A stretch of DNA of 35,132 nt from Spirochaetales bacterium (GTDB lineage Bacteria; Spirochaetota; Spirochaetia; SZUA-6; JAFGRV01), in NCBI GenBank assembly GCA_016935735.1, contig JAFGQK010000303.1, positions 1 to 35,132 on the forward strand. Direction: 5' to 3'. Position 1 is the first letter of the stretch; each line of letters starts with the position of its first letter. The notes under the pieces were generated by a model that searched no databases, was not told the origin of the DNA, and saw only the letters and a list, made by a program, of their open reading frames with translations. Positions 11,005 through 26,924 of this stretch are shown here, in pieces. Position numbers and translations under genes: made by a program.

Positions 11005-11030
11005 AAGCTGTCTGAACTGGATCAGACAGC
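11000..11030 (-). terminator. Intrinsic terminator of the minus-strand lipoprotein operon
   Basis: A perfect nine-base-pair stem (11007-11015 with 11022-11030) and six-base loop are followed on the minus strand by seven T residues (complement of 11000-11006). It lies 25 bases past the stop of the 11056-12570 gene. The plus-strand gene ending at 10969 may share the hairpin, although no T-run follows in that direction. Confidence 0.85.
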
Positions 11031-14817: not shown

Positions 14818-16167
14818 TTATGATTTCCAGACAAGGGCAAGACCGCCAAGGATCCCGCCATAGTTTTTAAAGAAATTACTGAACGTAAACCAATACGAAT
14901 ACCCCACATCAAGAACAAATTTGAGATCCCGGTTAACAAGGTAATTCACCGATACATACCCTTTAAACCCTGCATGGGTAAAACCCGGTTCATTGTCTTC
15001 GTCATCATCATTATCCCATGGTATGACAAGGGTTCCCCCGGCCGCGATGGTTGGCGCTATCTGTAATCTTCCCATGTAGAAATTTATATCACATCCCACG
15101 TAAAAATTCAGGGGCATTCCATAATCTAAAATTATGCCATATCCTTCAAGACCTTTGGTCGTCATGTCCGCAATAGGCACCTCAATACCAAAAATCGGCT
15201 TAACCAGATAAAGTCCCATTGACCATATGGCTTTAATACCCGGCATAATACAGAGTGTTTTGGATTCAGGATCGGCCAATATATGGCAATAAAGAATACC
15301 ATCTACCCCAATCCGGGGGACTTCGACAAGCTGGTCATCCACCCTGGGCTTGCCATAGAGGACCGTTGCCTCGGATATCTCTTTATAGACCGATTTCACC
15401 AGTACAAGCCCTGCATGCATCTCCTTACTAAATCCGCTTTCCGTTTCCTTTGAATGAATAATTTCAAATTCATATCCCGGTTGTATTCCCATGTTCTTCC
15501 CTTTTTCAATAACGACTTCTGCCCCGTGAACCTCGAGAACACCTGTCTTTATGGTAAAAAGGGGAATTTTCTTTAATTCAAGCTCCAGATTTGAAGAAAC
15601 CGATTTTACCGCATCGAGCCAGGCATCTTCCTTATCTACGGAAAAACCCGATGTCTCTATTTCCGGTTTTGCCACTACTTCCATGGTACTCGCATCCAAT
15701 ACTGTATAGGAAGTAATGAGTTTCACCTCATATCCGGTAAAATCATCATCCTCATCGTATACTTTATCTTCATCAAAAAATGTCACTTCCGGGATAATAA
15801 CGATAAAAGAAGAAATAAGGGCATTAAAATCCGCTTCGGTAAAAATAACATGCCCGAATGATACTTCTTCCGGTATTTCGGTCTCCTGTTCTTTTATCTT
15901 TTTGATTCTTTCAATAAATTTATAAAGGTCATCATCGCTTGAAAATCGCTTCCGAACTTCCAGAACCCTGAATCGTCCCATATCTACAACGGTTTTTCTG
16001 ATTGTTGAATCAAGGGAACCAACGACATCGGAATGAAAATCCGATCCATAATAACTGATATTGAATATAGATACATCCTTTTTTTCTGACACCTCTGCCG
16101 CAGTAACTCCCGAAATAAGTATGCAGGATGTGATAAAAAGTAAAAACAATAATTTACCCTTATTCAT
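14818..16167 (-). CDS. Exported FlgT-like protein with predicted beta-rich outer-membrane C-terminus
   Basis: Starting at the ATG at 16167 gives 449 residues. This start has AAGGAGG upstream and a proper signal peptide (about 1-23, ending VTA). A possible lipobox (I-T-S-C at 12-15) lies before the most hydrophobic part, so lipidation is uncertain. Residues 30-240 show a CsgG/FlgT-like alternation, including DVSIFNISYYGSDFHSDV. GVLEVHGAEVVIEKGKNMG followed by GYEFEI matches the FlgT C-terminal SH3-like domain. The final 150 residues alternate in short amphipathic strands (FYVGCDINFYMG, FKGYVSVNYLV, FVLDVGYSYWFTF), consistent with a small beta-barrel. It is first in the minus-strand cluster, behind the promoter at 16203-16230. 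Confidence 0.78.
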   Translation of the reverse strand: MNKGKLLFLLFITSCILISGVTAAEVSEKKDVSIFNISYYGSDFHSDVVGSLDSTIRKTVVDMGRFRVLEVRKRFSSDDDLYKFIERIKKIKEQETEIPEEVSFGHVIFTEADFNALISSFIVIIPEVTFFDEDKVYDEDDDFTGYEVKLITSYTVLDASTMEVVAKPEIETSGFSVDKEDAWLDAVKSVSSNLELELKKIPLFTIKTGVLEVHGAEVVIEKGKNMGIQPGYEFEIIHSKETESGFSKEMHAGLVLVKSVYKEISEATVLYGKPRVDDQLVEVPRIGVDGILYCHILADPESKTLCIMPGIKAIWSMGLYLVKPIFGIEVPIADMTTKGLEGYGIILDYGMPLNFYVGCDINFYMGRLQIAPTIAAGGTLVIPWDNDDDEDNEPGFTHAGFKGYVSVNYLVNRDLKFVLDVGYSYWFTFSNFFKNYGGILGGLALVWKS

Positions 16168-19165: not shown

Positions 19166-19185
19166 GTATTTATTACTTAGGTTTT
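19157..19185. terminator. Bidirectional terminator between convergent genes
   Basis: A twelve-base-pair stem (19157-19168 with 19174-19185) and a five-base loop lie between the convergent EamA-like and GH141-like genes. The plus-strand tail is TTTTATTC and the minus-strand tail TTTTTATCG. It overlaps the stop codons of both genes (19163-19165 and 19184-19186). Confidence 0.85.
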
Positions 19186-22100
19186 ATTCATAATAATAAT
19201 ACCGCTTTTTATTGTTCCTGAACTTTTTGAAAAGAATTACACCTATTATCCCTGCTGCGATAATAATAATTACAAGAATAATAATATGAAGAAAGCCCGG
19301 CCTGGTGGTATCCTCTCCCCCTTTCTGTGAAGTATTCCCGAAAAGCCATGACCAGGTATTGGTAGATGCAGTATTCGTCGCTTTGTCTCCTTTTTCCTTT
19401 TTATCGTTTTTGTCGTTTCCTTTTTTATCCGGGGGATTTGTGGGGCCTGTCACCGGTTTCCCGTCTTCTCCGATAACGACTTCCCCGGAATCAGACCGGT
19501 TATTTTTTTTCTCTTTTCCATTCTCTCCTTTATTCTTTTCTGCTGTAGTACCTTTTTCCTTATGAATTCTTTCTATGTATTCGACCAGGGTCTCACCTTC
19601 GTGTGTATCTTCTTTTTTCCCCTCAAGAAATTTATAGATTTCATCCCTGGAAGCATGTGCAAATACCGTTGACAGATCATCCGGATTACCATTTCCATTA
19701 TCATCATCATCATATTGTTCATTATTATCATCATTGTCATTCTCATCCCAATCAAAGGGATCGGTTTCATCCGTGATATTTTCGTCCGATGAATCATCGT
19801 CATCATCCTGGCTTTCTTCCTCTGTCAGGATGGTAACAACCACACTGCCTTCTGCCCAGGGACCATCTGTTGAATAAGCTGTTATCGTGATTGTATGATC
19901 TCCCGTATCCTCGAATACCCAATCCAGTAAGTATTGTTCATTTAAGCCTGCAATCATATTTCCATCAATAGAAATTTCAAGATAAACCCCGCTAAGATTT
20001 GCTTTTACTACCTTTGCTTCTATGTGAACCGGTGTCCCGGTGACATATTGTGACATGTTTTGGGGGCTTATAATTCTTAAGGAAGGAGATTGCGGTAAAG
20101 GACGCATTGCCAGTCTCTTTATTTCATCTTCCCGTAATGCCCTCCTGTAATAATAGACTTCATCCAGGTATCCTTTAAAAAAATAATTCACTGAATTAAA
20201 AGGCTTGATTCCCCCGATCATGAAATTAGAATCTGATTTCCCGTAATCCGATGTCCGGGCATCGACTGTAGCCGACACCTCGCCATTGATGTAGATTAAA
20301 AGCTGTTCCCCTGTTGCTACGGTGGCAATATGAGTCCATTCATCTGTCATAATATCTTCCGGGGCAAAGGTCGTATAGTTATTTGTAAGGGTCCACACTG
20401 CTATTTTCCCCGTTTCATTAAAGCTGGAAATGAATGCCCCGTATTGTCCCATAATACCGGTAAAGGGTTTTAAAGCCGTGGCTTTCATCCAGTATGCAAC
20501 AGTAAATGCGGACAACCCGTTTGCCAGCGGATGCTCTGTTTCCACATTCCCACTTCCGTCAAAAAACAGGCAGCTCCCGTATATTCCTTCCTCTTCCCAA
20601 TCGACAAAATTAATGTTCCCGTTATTATTGTTCCCGGATGAATCATGAGCGATAAGCCCTGACGCTTCATCAAAGTCCCAGTATGCCAGGAGATCTGACT
20701 GGGCTTCCAGAACATTAACCATAATGGTTTTAGAATTTTCATCATACTCGTTATCTATCGCTTTTACAGTAAGAAGATGTGTACCGGGGGTAACACCGGC
20801 CCAGATAAACTCATAGGGCGGTTCATAAGCCATCCCTATATGATATTCCTGGGTATACACCTCTACACTCTCAACAAAACCATCCAGGTCGGTTGCATTC
20901 ACTATGATTGATATATCAAGGGGACCATCATAACTCGAATTCGCCGGGGGATTGAGAATTTCCACCGTGGGGCGGAGATTTTCGCCCTTGCTTGCAATGG
21001 ATTTGAGTTCAGTTTCCCCAATTGCATAGCTGTAAAGCCGGACATCATCTATCGCACCGGTAAAGTTGGTGTCCCCGGGGCTGAAAATGCCCCCGCCACT
21101 ATTAAATGGAGAATCCGATCTCCCGTAATCGCTGACAGCCTGGGTGGAATTTCCGATCAGCGAACCATCAAAATAAAGCCGCATGCCGCTTTGATTACCG
21201 ATAACTGCCAGATGATGCCATGTATTCAACTGGCCGGGATACTTGACTTCGATTCCTCCCTTCCCGATGGTATACACCTGGAGTATCAGGTCATTTGAAA
21301 AACCAAGGCTTACCACCCCTGCCTGGCCAAAGAACCCGACTTTGGTTCCCCCTTCTTCGGGTTTTATCCACCCGGCCATGGTGAATTGTGAAAGCACATT
21401 CATCAGGGGGATGTTGGTGGTAATATATGCAGTGCCGTCAAAGTATAATGCACCCCCGCCTTTTACACCATAGATTTCCCCGGCATTGTATGGTGTCCCG
21501 TGATGTTCCTTGCCTGAAATATCCTGGACCACTCCCCCTACCACCGAGTCCATTGGCCAGTGTCCGATAAGCAAATTTTCCGCAGTTACCCATATGAATA
21601 CGGCAGTATCCTGCTTCATCCCTGCATTGTTTTCGGCAATCGCCGTTATAAGATAATCTCCCGGCTGTACATTTTCCCAGGTGTATTCCAGAGAATTTGC
21701 AGGAACCGTGGTAAGATGCTGGTTATTTGCCCTTATTTCAATAAAATGGATTCCACTGGATAAATCTTCTGCCGTTACCCGTATATCAATATTACACGGC
21801 CCCTGGAATTTCTGGTTTTCAGACGGTTCAAGAATCTGGACGTCCGGTGGGTTGGAAAGAATATTCTTTACATAAATCTGTACCGCTTCTTCATCCCTGC
21901 TTGAATCATTATCCTCTGCAACTACCTTTAAAAGATAAGATCCTTCGGGGACATTCTGCCAGTTAAATGAAAAATAGGAATCGCCTGTTTCATAAAGCAG
22001 CTTTTCATTTGCATAAAGCCACATTTTTACCACACTTCCATCCGAATCCTCTGCTCTTGCAGTAATGGTGATATTGGAATTGATGGGGAATTCCTGATTA

Positions 22101-24304
22101 TTCCTGGGTGTTTCAAAAACAATATGCGGTGATAGATTGATTCCCGTATCCTGTTCTTTCGGAATCTGGGCGTAAAAACGGAACCAGTCTACCTGGACAG
22201 GGCACATACTCCCACTGAAACGCAGATAAACATCATATAATCCGGCAACAGTTTCGATGGAGGATTTATCAATGATATATGAAGTAATCCCTCCTGTTCC
22301 GTTTATTGGAATGGTGCAGAGGGAGAGAGAACCGTATTTATTCTGAGCCCTTATCTCAATTTCCCTATCGGTACCTGTACCAAAAGAGGCATTGCAGGAA
22401 AGCTTTATTTCTACTTTCTTTAAGGAACTGTCAAAGTAAACGGATCCGTACCTTGTGTAATTTCCGCTTGACGATGACCGTATGGTGGTAACCCGGTTTG
22501 CTATTCCCAAAGCAGTGTTATAATCTTCCGCTTCTATTGCATCCCGGGCGTACCTGTGGGCAAAAGATGATTCGATTCCGATGCTATCCTGGTTTATGTT
22601 GGTAAATCCCAGGTCCAATACAGGTGACCCGGTCTTTACCTTATAATAGTGGGATTCCGGTTCTTCAAACTCCGGATCCTCGTCTATTATCGACTGCCTG
22701 TCATATCCGATGGTATAAATTTTCCGCCAGTCAGAAATATCACAGATAAGGGTGGGTGTCTTTACCTGGTATATGCTACCGGAATGATACATAAAGTTAT
22801 TATTGGATTCCCGGAAATTGGGATTATTCCATTCGTCAAATACATAGAAATATCTTCCGTTTTTCTTATAAAAGATATTTTGTGTTATTTCGGGATTCCG
22901 GGCGTGGCTGCTCGAAGCATCGAACCCGAGTCCGCCATATGTACCGTAATTCGAGAAAATATTGTTTTTTATCGTACAGTTATTGCCGGAAAGAAAAATC
23001 GCCCGCCCTTTACTGTTCGATCCCACCATCGTGTGAACGATATTGTTCTCTATGAGAGCATTTGATGTGGATTCACCAACATAAATTCCGGCAGGAATAA
23101 GGGCGGAATTCTGTATATAGATATCATGAATACAATTATTGGAAATACTATTGTTCGATCCTGCCTGGAAAAGATAGATTCCCCCGCCTTGTGTAACAGG
23201 GGTCACTCTTGAAACATCATTATTTCTTACCAGATTATAACTTGCATCAGGGCCATTGATGATAATCCCGTTCCCGGAAATGTACCTTATCCTGTTCTTT
23301 TCTATTATATTATTTCTGCTCTGGATTATCCGGATACCCGATCCGGATGATGATTTATACGCCCCGGATATGATGAAATTTCCCGAAAGAGTATTATTAC
23401 TGCTTGCATCAGAAGGTCCTTCCCCGGATAAATATCCCCGTAATGAAACGCCATGAAAATTAAAATCATCTATCCGGTTATTCCGTATTTTAATATTTCT
23501 GGCATATTTATCCACCACAATACCTGACACACCGGCACCAATAAGCTCGCATGAATCAACAGTGATATTTTCTGCGTTTTCCATATGAATAAGACCGGTT
23601 TCATCATAAAAGCTGGTAATACCACTGGACTTAAATCTGGTTCCAACGATGATAAGATCATGAAAACTTATGTTTTCTACCGGAGAACTTCCTGAACTTC
23701 CCTTTAGTTTTATAATGGTTTCTGTTTCCGGGAAAAAAATACACTGGTTAGAGACAGGATTATTCCTGGGGTAATAGTAAAGAATTCCGGTATCACCATC
23801 ATAATAGTACTTACCCGGGCAATCGAGTTTGAATATCATTTCATTTAACGAAAGGCTTCCCGGATTAAGAACCGCGATTCCCCTGTCCCTGTTTTCAAAA
23901 AAAGCGGATGTATCCCTGAACCCCACATTGGTAGACCATATCATTCCATCATAATTATTCCATGCAGTAATTTTAAGACCACCGGCAATAAAAACGTCAT
24001 CTTCACCATAGTTTTCATAAGTCACCCTGTTTCCGGTGGGATTCGAATCCGGCTCTGTAAATTCTATAGGGGTATCTATATAATACATTCCTTCCCTGAA
24101 AAAAACAGTAATATCTTCTGAAATACCGCCGCCTATAATCGTTCGCACCCTTTTTCTGGCACCATCAAAGGTTTGAAGCGGATTGTCTATAGCCCCGGTA
24201 TTTGTATCATTTCCGGTAGGTGAAACATATAAATCGAGGGAGAATACATGATAATAAAAGAGATTAAATAGTATTACGATTAAAAATATGGTTTTATTTT
24301 TCAT
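19184..24304 (-). CDS. Giant surface glycosidase-like protein: GH141-type beta-helix, CBM6-like, Ig-like and LamG domains, C-terminal anchor
   Basis: The protein has 1706 residues. A signal peptide (about 1-22) leads into a right-handed beta-helix domain (about 24-590). That domain begins LYVSPTGNDTNTG and has GMYYIDTPIEF, DDVFIAGGLKITAW and a long run of parallel-beta-helix turns; its end (ESHYYKVKTGSPVLDLGF) matches the GH141 family (xylanase and alpha-fucosidase activities). A CBM6-like module follows (about 590-722, EAEDYNT, VDWFRFYA). Four bacterial Ig-like domains (about 726, 820, 1113 and 1408) alternate with two LamG domains (about 910-1105 and 1205-1395). An Asp/Asn-rich stretch and a Lys/Glu-rich region precede a single membrane segment (about 1673-1693) and basic tail, so it is probably displayed on the cell surface. 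The enzyme substrate is uncertain. No SD precedes its ATG. Confidence 0.82.
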   Translation of the reverse strand: MKNKTIFLIVILFNLFYYHVFSLDLYVSPTGNDTNTGAIDNPLQTFDGARKRVRTIIGGGISEDITVFFREGMYYIDTPIEFTEPDSNPTGNRVTYENYGEDDVFIAGGLKITAWNNYDGMIWSTNVGFRDTSAFFENRDRGIAVLNPGSLSLNEMIFKLDCPGKYYYDGDTGILYYYPRNNPVSNQCIFFPETETIIKLKGSSGSSPVENISFHDLIIVGTRFKSSGITSFYDETGLIHMENAENITVDSCELIGAGVSGIVVDKYARNIKIRNNRIDDFNFHGVSLRGYLSGEGPSDASSNNTLSGNFIISGAYKSSSGSGIRIIQSRNNIIEKNRIRYISGNGIIINGPDASYNLVRNNDVSRVTPVTQGGGIYLFQAGSNNSISNNCIHDIYIQNSALIPAGIYVGESTSNALIENNIVHTMVGSNSKGRAIFLSGNNCTIKNNIFSNYGTYGGLGFDASSSHARNPEITQNIFYKKNGRYFYVFDEWNNPNFRESNNNFMYHSGSIYQVKTPTLICDISDWRKIYTIGYDRQSIIDEDPEFEEPESHYYKVKTGSPVLDLGFTNINQDSIGIESSFAHRYARDAIEAEDYNTALGIANRVTTIRSSSSGNYTRYGSVYFDSSLKKVEIKLSCNASFGTGTDREIEIRAQNKYGSLSLCTIPINGTGGITSYIIDKSSIETVAGLYDVYLRFSGSMCPVQVDWFRFYAQIPKEQDTGINLSPHIVFETPRNNQEFPINSNITITARAEDSDGSVVKMWLYANEKLLYETGDSYFSFNWQNVPEGSYLLKVVAEDNDSSRDEEAVQIYVKNILSNPPDVQILEPSENQKFQGPCNIDIRVTAEDLSSGIHFIEIRANNQHLTTVPANSLEYTWENVQPGDYLITAIAENNAGMKQDTAVFIWVTAENLLIGHWPMDSVVGGVVQDISGKEHHGTPYNAGEIYGVKGGGALYFDGTAYITTNIPLMNVLSQFTMAGWIKPEEGGTKVGFFGQAGVVSLGFSNDLILQVYTIGKGGIEVKYPGQLNTWHHLAVIGNQSGMRLYFDGSLIGNSTQAVSDYGRSDSPFNSGGGIFSPGDTNFTGAIDDVRLYSYAIGETELKSIASKGENLRPTVEILNPPANSSYDGPLDISIIVNATDLDGFVESVEVYTQEYHIGMAYEPPYEFIWAGVTPGTHLLTVKAIDNEYDENSKTIMVNVLEAQSDLLAYWDFDEASGLIAHDSSGNNNNGNINFVDWEEEGIYGSCLFFDGSGNVETEHPLANGLSAFTVAYWMKATALKPFTGIMGQYGAFISSFNETGKIAVWTLTNNYTTFAPEDIMTDEWTHIATVATGEQLLIYINGEVSATVDARTSDYGKSDSNFMIGGIKPFNSVNYFFKGYLDEVYYYRRALREDEIKRLAMRPLPQSPSLRIISPQNMSQYVTGTPVHIEAKVVKANLSGVYLEISIDGNMIAGLNEQYLLDWVFEDTGDHTITITAYSTDGPWAEGSVVVTILTEEESQDDDDDSSDENITDETDPFDWDENDNDDNNEQYDDDDNGNGNPDDLSTVFAHASRDEIYKFLEGKKEDTHEGETLVEYIERIHKEKGTTAEKNKGENGKEKKNNRSDSGEVVIGEDGKPVTGPTNPPDKKGNDKNDKKEKGDKATNTASTNTWSWLFGNTSQKGGEDTTRPGFLHIIILVIIIIAAGIIGVILFKKFRNNKKRYYYYE

Positions 24305-24324
24305 TTTTTGCTTTTACACTTTAT

Positions 24325-24353
24325 ACATTACCATGAATAGCGGAAAAAGTCAA
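24325..24353 (-). promoter_or_regulatory. Promoter of the giant surface protein gene
   Basis: On the minus strand TTGACT (24353-24348) and TAATGT (24330-24325) are 17 bases apart. The -10 lies 20 bases from the ATG at 24304, so the predicted leader is only about 13 bases. It has A-rich sequence but no SD. Confidence 0.5.
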
Positions 24354-24488
24354 ATATATGTTGGGTGTAATTTTATGACCGGCTTTTTTGGTTCCTTTAA
24401 TGTACCGGACAAAGGTAAAGAACTGCCTGTTTCTGTGTGACAGAATTTCAAATTATTTCTTAAAAAAAAAAAGAAAATAAAAAAGTGA

Positions 24489-24517
24489 TTGAAGAAATTA
24501 TAATAAAGGTATATAAT
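24489..24517 (+). promoter_or_regulatory. Near-consensus promoter of the predicted small RNA
   Basis: TTGAAG (24489-24494) and a perfect TATAAT (24512-24517) are separated by exactly 17 bases. No protein-coding gene follows on the plus strand. A terminator starts 38 bases downstream of the -10. Confidence 0.65.
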
Positions 24518-24523
24518 CGCTCC

Positions 24524-24604
24524 AACGAAAGTTACAGGTAATTAAAAACCTTTTGTCCTGTGTTCCGGGTTCCTCCCCCTTTTCCTGGACGCAGGACTTT
24601 TTTT
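24524..24604 (+). ncRNA. Predicted small regulatory RNA (about 81 bases)
   Basis: This plus-strand transcript would start about seven bases after the -10 at 24512-24517 and end at a seven-T run. It contains no open frame with a ribosome binding site. A small 5' hairpin is possible (AGGT 24536-24539 with ACCT 24548-24551). The 3' hairpin has an outer stem (24555-24562 with 24590-24597, one G-U) and an inner stem of six pairs. Its loop, TTCCTCCCCCTTTT (24570-24583), is entirely pyrimidine and contains UUCCUCC, complementary to the GGAGGAA in several ribosome binding sites of this window. That resembles C-rich-loop riboregulators in other bacteria. Only the promoter and terminator are seen; an RNA product is inferred. 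Confidence 0.5.
24555..24604 (+). terminator. Intrinsic terminator of the small RNA
   Basis: A stem of eight outer and about six inner pairs with one bulged base closes a 14-base pyrimidine loop and is followed by seven T residues (24598-24604). On the minus strand the same hairpin is followed by AAAAGGTTTTT, so it suits plus-strand transcription better, although it may also end the minus-strand DUF362 gene. Confidence 0.7.
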
Positions 24605-25766
24605 ATCCTGAAAACATTCTATAGAGTAATCCGCCGGTTAATTGAACAGCATTCTCCGGGCACATTTCATGACAGCAATAGCAGCGGATACACTTTTTAT
24701 GATTAATTTCTGCATATGCTGCATCTTCCCCTGCAGAGTTTATTATCGTAATAGCAGACTCCGGACATGCACGCTTGCAGGCGCCACAGGCAATACATAT
24801 ATCTTTCCGGATGTGAGGTTTCCTGGTAAATACATTCACAAAAAGCGGAGAAAGCCTGTCCACAAGCTTAAGCCCACCCCCTTTTAAAAGCGTATCGGGA
24901 AGTTTGAAATCCCTGCATCTGATTTCGGAGAAATCAGCTCCAATCAATTCGACCTGTTCCGGTGAATTGGGTGTAATACCCAGTCTCCGTGCTTCGGTTA
25001 AAACAGGATTATCCTTTGGCGACAGTCCTGCAATTTCTCCTGCAATAATATCCAGAGCCAGGGGATTTTCCGATGCTAAAAGATATCCGATATTTTTCGG
25101 GGTTCCCCCGGATGGACCATTCCCTTCCATTCCAACCACCGCATCCATAATGGAAAGCCGTGGGGGAATGCATCGTATAAGATCAATAAGCATCCTGGCA
25201 AAATATCCTTTATTACGGAGTTTTGAATGGTATCCGGGTTTCTTGAGCCCCGGTATTACCCCGAACATATTTTTCACAGCACCGGTTAAATGCATAAAAA
25301 CATGGGTCTTTAATTTGCATACATTAAACAATACATCCGCATCAAGAACAGGTGCAATAATCTCAAACTGCTTAATAAGAGAACCTTCCTGAAAAGAAAC
25401 CTGCTTATACTCTGTATTGTAATTCAATTCCCAGCTGTTTTTTAAAGCTATATCATATATACCACACCGTTCATAGCATTTTTCAAGACTCTTCCGGTTA
25501 TAAGGGATCCCTGACCCCGGGCTATCGGCAATCAGGACAGCCCCCCCCCCTTGTTCAACGAATTTGCAGACACCGGCCAGAATCCGGGGATGTGTGGTCA
25601 CCGCTTTTTCAGGATCAGCAGCACTTAATAGATTCGGTTTAATAAGAACTTTTTCTCCCGGATGGACAAATTGTTTGATATCACCCATCATTGAAAATAA
25701 AACCTTCATCATTTCATCTGAATGCTCATAATCCGGGCACTTTACAATAAATACTTTATAAGCCAC
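24603..25766 (-). CDS. DUF362 protein with C-terminal two-cluster ferredoxin domain
   Basis: A 387-residue protein with the DUF362 domain (about 1-290). Motifs include VLIKPNLLSAADPEKAVTTHP, GAVLIADSPGSG, NVCKLKTHVFMHLTGAVKN and a conserved IMDAVVGMEGNGPSGGTP. The C-terminus carries two CX2CX2CX3CP motifs (CIACGACKRACP and CIRCYCCHEMCP), so it should bind two [4Fe-4S] clusters. Family members are probably cytoplasmic redox proteins; no reaction is established. The start is a GTG at 25766 with GGAG six bases upstream. It follows the methyltransferase gene by 54 bases on the same strand, probably in one operon from the promoter at 26964-26992. Confidence 0.88.
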   Translation of the reverse strand: MAYKVFIVKCPDYEHSDEMMKVLFSMMGDIKQFVHPGEKVLIKPNLLSAADPEKAVTTHPRILAGVCKFVEQGGGAVLIADSPGSGIPYNRKSLEKCYERCGIYDIALKNSWELNYNTEYKQVSFQEGSLIKQFEIIAPVLDADVLFNVCKLKTHVFMHLTGAVKNMFGVIPGLKKPGYHSKLRNKGYFARMLIDLIRCIPPRLSIMDAVVGMEGNGPSGGTPKNIGYLLASENPLALDIIAGEIAGLSPKDNPVLTEARRLGITPNSPEQVELIGADFSEIRCRDFKLPDTLLKGGGLKLVDRLSPLFVNVFTRKPHIRKDICIACGACKRACPESAITIINSAGEDAAYAEINHKKCIRCYCCHEMCPENAVQLTGGLLYRMFSG

Positions 25767-25820
25767 TATATCTCCATAAAAAGGAAAGTTGTTCGGATCG
25801 TTTAAAAAACGATATGTGAT

Positions 25821-26924
25821 TTATTGGGAATAATCCATATCCCCATCTTCCGATTCTGAATACCGTTTCCCTTCCTGATCCCTGAAAGATATGAAATGCA
25901 CCTTCCTGGGGAGAAGGTTTTCACGGTCAAAATAGATACTTTCTCCATCAACATGCTTTGTCACTTTAAGAAGCTTTTGACCGGAGGGCGGACCAACAGG
26001 AATAACCATGATTCCTTCCGGTGCCAGTTGTTTCAGCAGGGGGGGAGGAATATGATCTATTGAACAGGTAACAATAATTCTATCAAATGGTTCCTTTTCC
26101 GGCCATCCATAATAGCCGTCTCCTGTCACTCTTCGTATGTTTTTATAGTGATGATATTCCTGTTCATATTCCCGGTAAAGATTGTTGGTTTCAGCGGCGA
26201 GTTCCTCGATTATTTCTATTGTATAAATAAAATTGGATAATTCGGAAAGAAGGGCAGATTGATACCCTGAACCTGTCCCGATTTCCAGTACTTTATGATC
26301 CGGTTCAGGGGCGATTGTCTGGGTCATTAAAGAAACAATCCACGGATCTGTGATTGTAGCGCCATATCCTATCGGCATATACGCATGTTCATAAGCACGG
26401 TTGATATTTCTTTTGCGGATAAAATTTTCTCTCGGAGTCCGTAAAAATGCTTCTTTTATTCTGTCATCCTGAATGCTATCCCATCTGATAAGATCCTGAA
26501 GACAATCCCAGCGCCAGCTTATGAATTTTTCCTTTTCACTTGTATGGGCCAGCATCCATTGAACATATTCTTCTTTATTATCCATAGGAGGGTGAAGTGT
26601 CCGTTGAGTGATATCATGCCGTGGAATACCTTCATCCAGGGGAATAAGAACATTGTTACCGGATTGTTTATTATTACTGAAATTTACTCCAGGCGAAGAT
26701 TTTGTATCCGGGACAAAGGTAACAAAGAGTAAATAACCGGTTAAAAACCCGATAATAATCACAAGAGTATGGCTGATTAACAGGAATATGATTTTTTTAA
26801 GAAAAGGTCTTCCGGGTTTTATGGTTTTTATCCCCGGTTTGTTTCCTTTATTCTTTTCCAGTGTACACTCTGGACATAATCCGGGCTTTTTCACATCTAC
26901 CCCACAAGACAGACAAGCTGGCAT
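25821..26924 (-). CDS. Membrane-anchored PCMT-like methyltransferase with N-terminal zinc ribbon
   Basis: The ATG at 26924 has AGGAGG upstream and gives 367 residues. A short zinc-ribbon with C4, C7, C17 and C20 comes first (CLSCG, CPEC), then a Lys-rich stretch and a single membrane segment (about 45-70). The C-terminal domain is PCMT-like: RENFIRKRN, the glycine loop VLEIGTGSGYQSALL (about 211-225), YTIEIIEELA, GDGYYGWPEKEPFDRIIVT and APEGIMVIPVG. PCMT enzymes use SAM to methylate isoaspartate during protein repair and normally lack a membrane anchor. The Lys/Arg residues lie on the N-terminal side of the helix, so the positive-inside rule places the methyltransferase domain outside the cytoplasm, which is unusual. 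Confidence 0.85.
   Translation of the reverse strand: MPACLSCGVDVKKPGLCPECTLEKNKGNKPGIKTIKPGRPFLKKIIFLLISHTLVIIIGFLTGYLLFVTFVPDTKSSPGVNFSNNKQSGNNVLIPLDEGIPRHDITQRTLHPPMDNKEEYVQWMLAHTSEKEKFISWRWDCLQDLIRWDSIQDDRIKEAFLRTPRENFIRKRNINRAYEHAYMPIGYGATITDPWIVSLMTQTIAPEPDHKVLEIGTGSGYQSALLSELSNFIYTIEIIEELAAETNNLYREYEQEYHHYKNIRRVTGDGYYGWPEKEPFDRIIVTCSIDHIPPPLLKQLAPEGIMVIPVGPPSGQKLLKVTKHVDGESIYFDRENLLPRKVHFISFRDQEGKRYSESEDGDMDYSQ

Follow-up and report, generated by a model that had tools for sequence, protein, structure and literature searches.

A predicted small RNA with an anti-Shine-Dalgarno terminator loop and a candidate family of such RNAs across spirochaetes

A 35,132-nt stretch of DNA from a Spirochaetales bacterium, analysed here as a whole and called the window, very probably encodes an orphan plus-strand small RNA (sRNA), predicted from sequence, whose terminator loop can pair with Shine-Dalgarno (SD) sequences. 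Such an RNA had been proposed in a first-pass annotation of the window, and the proposal gains support from the recurrence of this loop type throughout the class, with compensatory changes in the stems. The recurring hairpins appear to represent an undescribed family of small RNAs across spirochaetes. In a hairpin loop, these RNAs display a copy of the sequence with which the ribosome binds mRNA, and could thereby block ribosome binding sites. Within this family, the window RNA is probably a divergent member driven by sigma-70. Taken as a whole, an Hfq-independent sRNA with its own sigma-70 promoter, belonging as a divergent member to a class-wide anti-SD family, is the best explanation and a moderately probable one.

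The unit (24462-24604, plus strand) is situated between two minus-strand genes, with its TATAAT promoter 37 nt upstream of the hairpin. Its features and neighbours are as follows.

24462..24486, plus strand: A-rich tract upstream of the promoter, possible UP element
24489..24517, plus strand: sigma-70-type promoter TTGAAG-N17-TATAAT (TTGAAG 24489-24494, TATAAT 24512-24517)
24524..24604, plus strand: predicted small RNA of about 81 nt, ORF-free, with a putative transcript start
24555..24597, plus strand: terminator hairpin of 14 pairs, -21.6 kcal/mol on folding, with GG/CC closing the loop
24570..24583, plus strand: 14-nt pyrimidine loop UUCCUCCCCCUUUU (TTCCTCCCCCTTTT in window letters)
24572-24576, plus strand: anti-SD core CCUCC within the loop
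24598..24604, plus strand: seven-T tail, overlapping the convergent DUF362 gene at its stop codon
24603..25766, minus strand: convergent DUF362/ferredoxin-type gene, its stop codon in the T-run
19184..24304, minus strand: beta-helix/laminin-G (LamG) surface protein gene, 1706 aa, reading away from the sRNA

The promoter had been annotated as leading to no protein gene and, after some eighty bases, to a hairpin and seven T residues; these coordinates were confirmed, and a gene and ORF check found nothing on the plus strand inside the unit. TATAAT, described as the most consensus-like -10 element, is not unique, because it occurs 65 times in the window. The hairpin folds better on the plus strand than on the minus strand (folding z of -3.7 vs -1.4; stem energy of -21.6 vs -15.6 kcal/mol), since its G-U wobble pairs become A-C mismatches on the latter. 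Its arrangement of GG, 14 nt and CC followed by seven T residues is the form that defines the family described below, namely a pyrimidine-rich loop of 11-20 nt closed by GG/CC.

How often such units arise by chance was estimated from a sample of 1.0 Mb of the genome to which the window belongs. After crude gene calling, 342 intergenic regions were scanned for promoters scoring 10/12 or more that had a terminator hairpin of -8 kcal/mol or stronger 30-300 nt downstream. Seven intergenic pairs were obtained, compared with 0.2 in 20 shuffled sets, while promoter-like matches by themselves occurred at chance (38 vs 34 expected, in 12 kb). By our reading, the other six pairs comprise two tRNA genes, an S21-like (rpsU) gene and another small coding gene, together with a tRNA terminator read in reverse and a remaining candidate; the presence of tRNA genes and rpsU indicates that the method finds real genes. 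Among the seven, the hairpin of the window unit is the strongest by a wide margin, and it ranks second in strength among all intergenic terminators of the sample. Only 16 intergenic terminators of -14 kcal/mol or better were present in the 1.0 Mb, and this rarity of strong intrinsic terminators suggests that Rho-dependent termination dominates in this genome. Strong orphan terminators with no evident upstream gene were also seen at loci L204 (8682-8712), L188 (2156-2191) and L193 (2885-2928), where their sequences hint at possible further small RNAs. Additionally, a terminator with the stem GCTGTC...GACAGC, or close forms of it, followed by at least seven T residues, recurs in the genome, at 11007-11030 of the window and at L154 17754, L179 15568 and L207 19679.

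The family was delineated with covariance models. A first model, with the window RNA as its only sequence, was searched against 297 genomes of the class (about 1 Gb), where its best five non-self matches had E-values of 2e-4 to 2e-3; four of these are real family members, terminator hairpins with differing stems and the common loop GG-UUYCU.CYUCCUUUY-CC. Another model was built from five such hairpins, with AGGAC of the outer stem removed from the window row of the alignment, keeping the tail in register, and a further one without any window sequence. The five-hairpin model matched in 202 of 395 genomes at E<=0.1 and in about 125 of the 395 at E<=5e-5, where chance would give about 0.02. Across 30 loci, none of them from the window's genome, the stem is 100% paired and eight of its ten pairs have changed on both sides; none of 500 shuffles reached any covariation measure. 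In a control of 490 kb of non-spirochaete loci, the best score was 23.7 bits, compared with 38-65 bits for members. Three members belong to other classes of the phylum. Nine hits (L226, L229, L282, L285-L288, L292 and L293) were set aside as ordinary terminators that lack the loop.

The consensus loop is GG-UUU(N)ACCUCCUUU(U)-CC, with UCCUCCUUU as an alternative core, and contains the 16S anti-SD core; ACCUCCUUU is the anti-SD stretch at the 16S rRNA 3' end. Member genomes presumably include those of Spirochaeta thermophila (two), Treponema denticola, Sediminispirochaeta smaragdinae, Sphaerochaeta coccoides and Spirochaeta africana, and by these names the class holding the family is Spirochaetia. 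Some species have multiple copies per genome. The genes downstream vary by species (leuS, a QTMAN glycosyltransferase, a trypsin-like protease, a LacI-type regulator), in keeping with independent RNAs that act in trans. In Rfam 15, no family reached its gathering score for the window region or the family members; the only match at that level was an SRP RNA elsewhere in locus L266, and matches at E up to 10 over the window region were sub-threshold and of chance quality, the best being IsrM with 18.6 bits against a cut-off of 376. A search of the open-access literature, with subscription journals outside its scope, found no papers on such RNAs in spirochaetes.

Many members share a promoter motif. 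TGTAAC-N14-18-GTT was found upstream of 25 of 44 members (shuffled mean 0.2, maximum 2), nearly always with a spacing of N17, since a GTTGTT in the N14 cases places a second GTT at that distance. In 252 kb of member loci, searched on both strands, 26 of the 27 occurrences fall within 250 nt upstream of the hairpins. The motif looks like the promoter of an ECF sigma factor; promoters of the sigma-X type also carry TGTAAC. A sigma-70 promoter takes its place in six of the 44 members (0.1 expected), including those of S. thermophila, and the window unit likewise has its own promoter of sigma-70 type without the TGTAAC type. Furthermore, 17 of the 44 members (vs 0.09 expected) carry a second anti-SD copy upstream, ACCTCCTTT with the ACCUCCUUU core, either in a second hairpin or single-stranded. 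Both features occur in the member that we take to be from T. denticola (L326, 1286-1330), which has TGTAAC-N16-GTT, the upstream ACCTCCTTT and the terminator loop UUUUUCUCCUCCUUUU.

Given that the window RNA is an RNA at all, its membership in this family is quite likely. Scored with the window-free model, its hairpin is the top match of the window (E=3e-4), with a lead of 11 bits over the second. Over the whole genome, however, the same model gives it a non-significant E of about 0.15, so that it is called a probable rather than an established member; ordinary terminators in sister genomes reach up to 32 bits with this model. The loop core is CCCCCUUUU, compared with ACCUCCUUU or CCUCCUUU in the family, and the best core in UUCCUCCCCCUUUU scores 9.1 bits vs at least 12.3 for members. 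The probability of an equally good score is 9e-4 for a random 14-nt loop and 0.08 for one made up of pyrimidines only. Among 40 terminator loops of its own genome, the window loop is the best against the family core, and it is identical at 13 of 14 positions to a loop of genome G037 and at 12 of 14 to loops of G085 and T. denticola. A canonical-looking member is found elsewhere in the window's genome, on the minus strand of contig C156 at about 35021-34890 (L189, L337). It has TGTAAC-N17-GTT, the hairpin loop UUUUACCUCCUUUC and then a separate terminator. Downstream of it lie a nucleoside-phosphorylase-like gene and then a PCMT-like gene, both named from their sequences.

A rival reading, which we regard as unlikely, is that the window gives a genuine small RNA or terminated transcript from outside the family, with a pyrimidine loop that is similar by chance or convergence. 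In its favour are the divergent loop core, the weak genome-wide score with the window-free model and the canonical-looking member on C156. Against it, the loop length of 14, the GG/CC closure and the placement of the U-tail all match the family, the window sequence by itself retrieves family members among its top matches, and other species also have sigma-70-driven members and several copies per genome.

A quite improbable reading is that the hairpin is a terminator without a functional RNA, either shielding DUF362 from antisense transcription or ending DUF362 itself, with an incidental promoter. In its favour, the hairpin begins immediately past the stop codon of DUF362, and promoter-like matches by themselves are no more frequent than chance predicts; however, the minus-strand stem is the weaker one (-15.6 vs -21.6 kcal/mol) and has no adjoining U-run, the plus strand offers, 37 nt upstream, a TATAAT promoter of the right spacing with an A-tract, and orphan units elsewhere conserve this type of loop. 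It is scarcely credible that the element is a cis-acting attenuator or leader of a plus-strand gene: some relatives have the hairpin 45-200 nt upstream of a same-strand gene, but no plus-strand gene follows in the window, and the downstream genes vary between species.

According to the proposed mechanism, the window unit would give rise to an sRNA of about 81 nt from its own sigma-70 promoter, acting with no need for Hfq, and its 3' terminator hairpin would present the 14-nt pyrimidine loop with the anti-SD core. The family loop, mostly ACCUCCUUU as in the 16S rRNA 3' tail, may base-pair with target mRNAs at their SD and so prevent binding of the 30S subunit, leading to translational repression. 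As the loop is exposed and complementary to the SD, loop-to-SD pairing that excludes the 30S subunit is the simplest mechanism. In many lineages the family would be driven by the ECF-type TGTAAC-N17-GTT promoter. What the sequences show directly is the anatomy of the unit, the excess of such units over chance, the conservation of loop and stem in the family, and the promoter motifs. We infer transcription, ECF control, SD pairing and translational repression from sequence, as we do the descent of the window RNA from the family rather than as a look-alike. Hfq (PF17209) is absent from the 26 genomes of the order, whereas it was found in five of 14 control genomes. The broadest picture, on which our judgement is evenly balanced, is a spirochaete-wide sRNA family with one or two anti-SD copies in or near loops, placed in many lineages under a single ECF-type sigma factor and serving as an Hfq-free broad brake on translation initiation during envelope stress, with the window RNA as a sigma-70-driven offshoot.

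The first-pass annotation had matched the loop to GGAGGAA before bfr, the FlgT-like gene (ATG at 16167) and the PCMT-like gene (ATG at 26924). All three sites were found, that of bfr at 1074-1080, one base off the position first given. These genes are not supported as targets: they rank 103-124 of 709 genes by duplex energy in the 1.0 Mb sample, and GGAGGAA lies upstream of 33 of the 709 gene starts there, so the three are not special. Since GGAGG precedes 132 of these starts and GGAGGAA 33, the core by itself cannot confer specificity. Either targets may be picked by flanking bases and accessibility, or the RNA may act broadly.

Little is known of small RNAs in spirochaetes, and Hfq is lacking in the order studied. 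MicA and RybB are sigma-E-dependent small RNAs that block ribosome binding, require Hfq and pair through seed regions. The spirochaete family is proposed to block ribosome binding under an ECF sigma factor as well, but would do so with an anti-SD copy, in an order where Hfq was not found. RNAIII, CyaR and AbcR1 are partly Hfq-dependent; they are longer than the spirochaete RNAs and unrelated to them in sequence. Their loops bind ribosome binding sites through partial anti-SD motifs (PMC3927594).

The closest functional parallels are the cuckoo/alpha-r14 RNAs and the CcsR RNAs of Rhodobacter. The alpha-r14/NfeR1/SmelA075 'cuckoo' RNAs of alphaproteobacteria combine an invariant anti-SD loop, CCUCCUCCC, with freely varying stems, and resemble the spirochaete family in their anti-SD hairpin loops, multiple hairpins and several copies per genome (PMC10746234, PMC3927594). 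The spirochaete RNAs differ in displaying ACCUCCUUU in a GG/CC-closed loop of 11-20 nt that is usually the terminator itself, in belonging to another bacterial class, in their TGTAAC-N17-GTT promoter and in showing no similarity by Rfam models. Cuckoo RNAs carry CCUCCUCCC in each of several hairpin loops, from which the window loop differs, again with no Rfam match. CcsR1-4 of Rhodobacter sphaeroides, counted as cuckoo-type and tied to stress defence, are likewise transcribed from promoters of alternative sigma factors, RpoHI/RpoHII (PMC10253847). Their transcripts, however, also encode a DUF1127 protein and undergo RNase E processing, whereas each spirochaete RNA apparently has a promoter to itself and no protein gene attached. 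If true, a covarying class-wide family with a 16S anti-SD loop and a bipartite promoter that hardly occurs outside it would represent a case of convergence with the cuckoo RNAs. With such a family, cultured species could be used to test how an anti-SD loop selects its partners from thousands of SDs.

Conservation in close relatives, named in the first-pass annotation as a refuting check, gives a mixed picture: close relatives lack the unit at the syntenic place, yet the loop type occurs in many more distant ones. The sole same-genus genome (G001) retains the gene order HATPase-SIS-PCMT-LamG but lacks the stretch that carries DUF362 and the sRNA (about 24320-25857). A genome of the next genus (G002) retains HATPase-SIS-PCMT with a different gene adjoining and has no terminator of the window type after the PCMT gene. 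DNA-level searches for orthologues of the intergenic region found none in 41 and 26 genomes, the latter set being the order, and matched only ferredoxin-like coding sequence. The window unit is therefore lineage-specific at this place. The flanks of the best 33 DUF362 homologues, from other phyla, contain no comparable promoter-hairpin unit, and thus the RNA does not obviously travel with DUF362. A LamG paralogue on contig C336 of the window's genome shares only an upstream promoter-like element and not the sRNA. This element, TTGACT-N17-TAATGTATAA, is found in the window at 24320-24353 on the minus strand, before the LamG gene.
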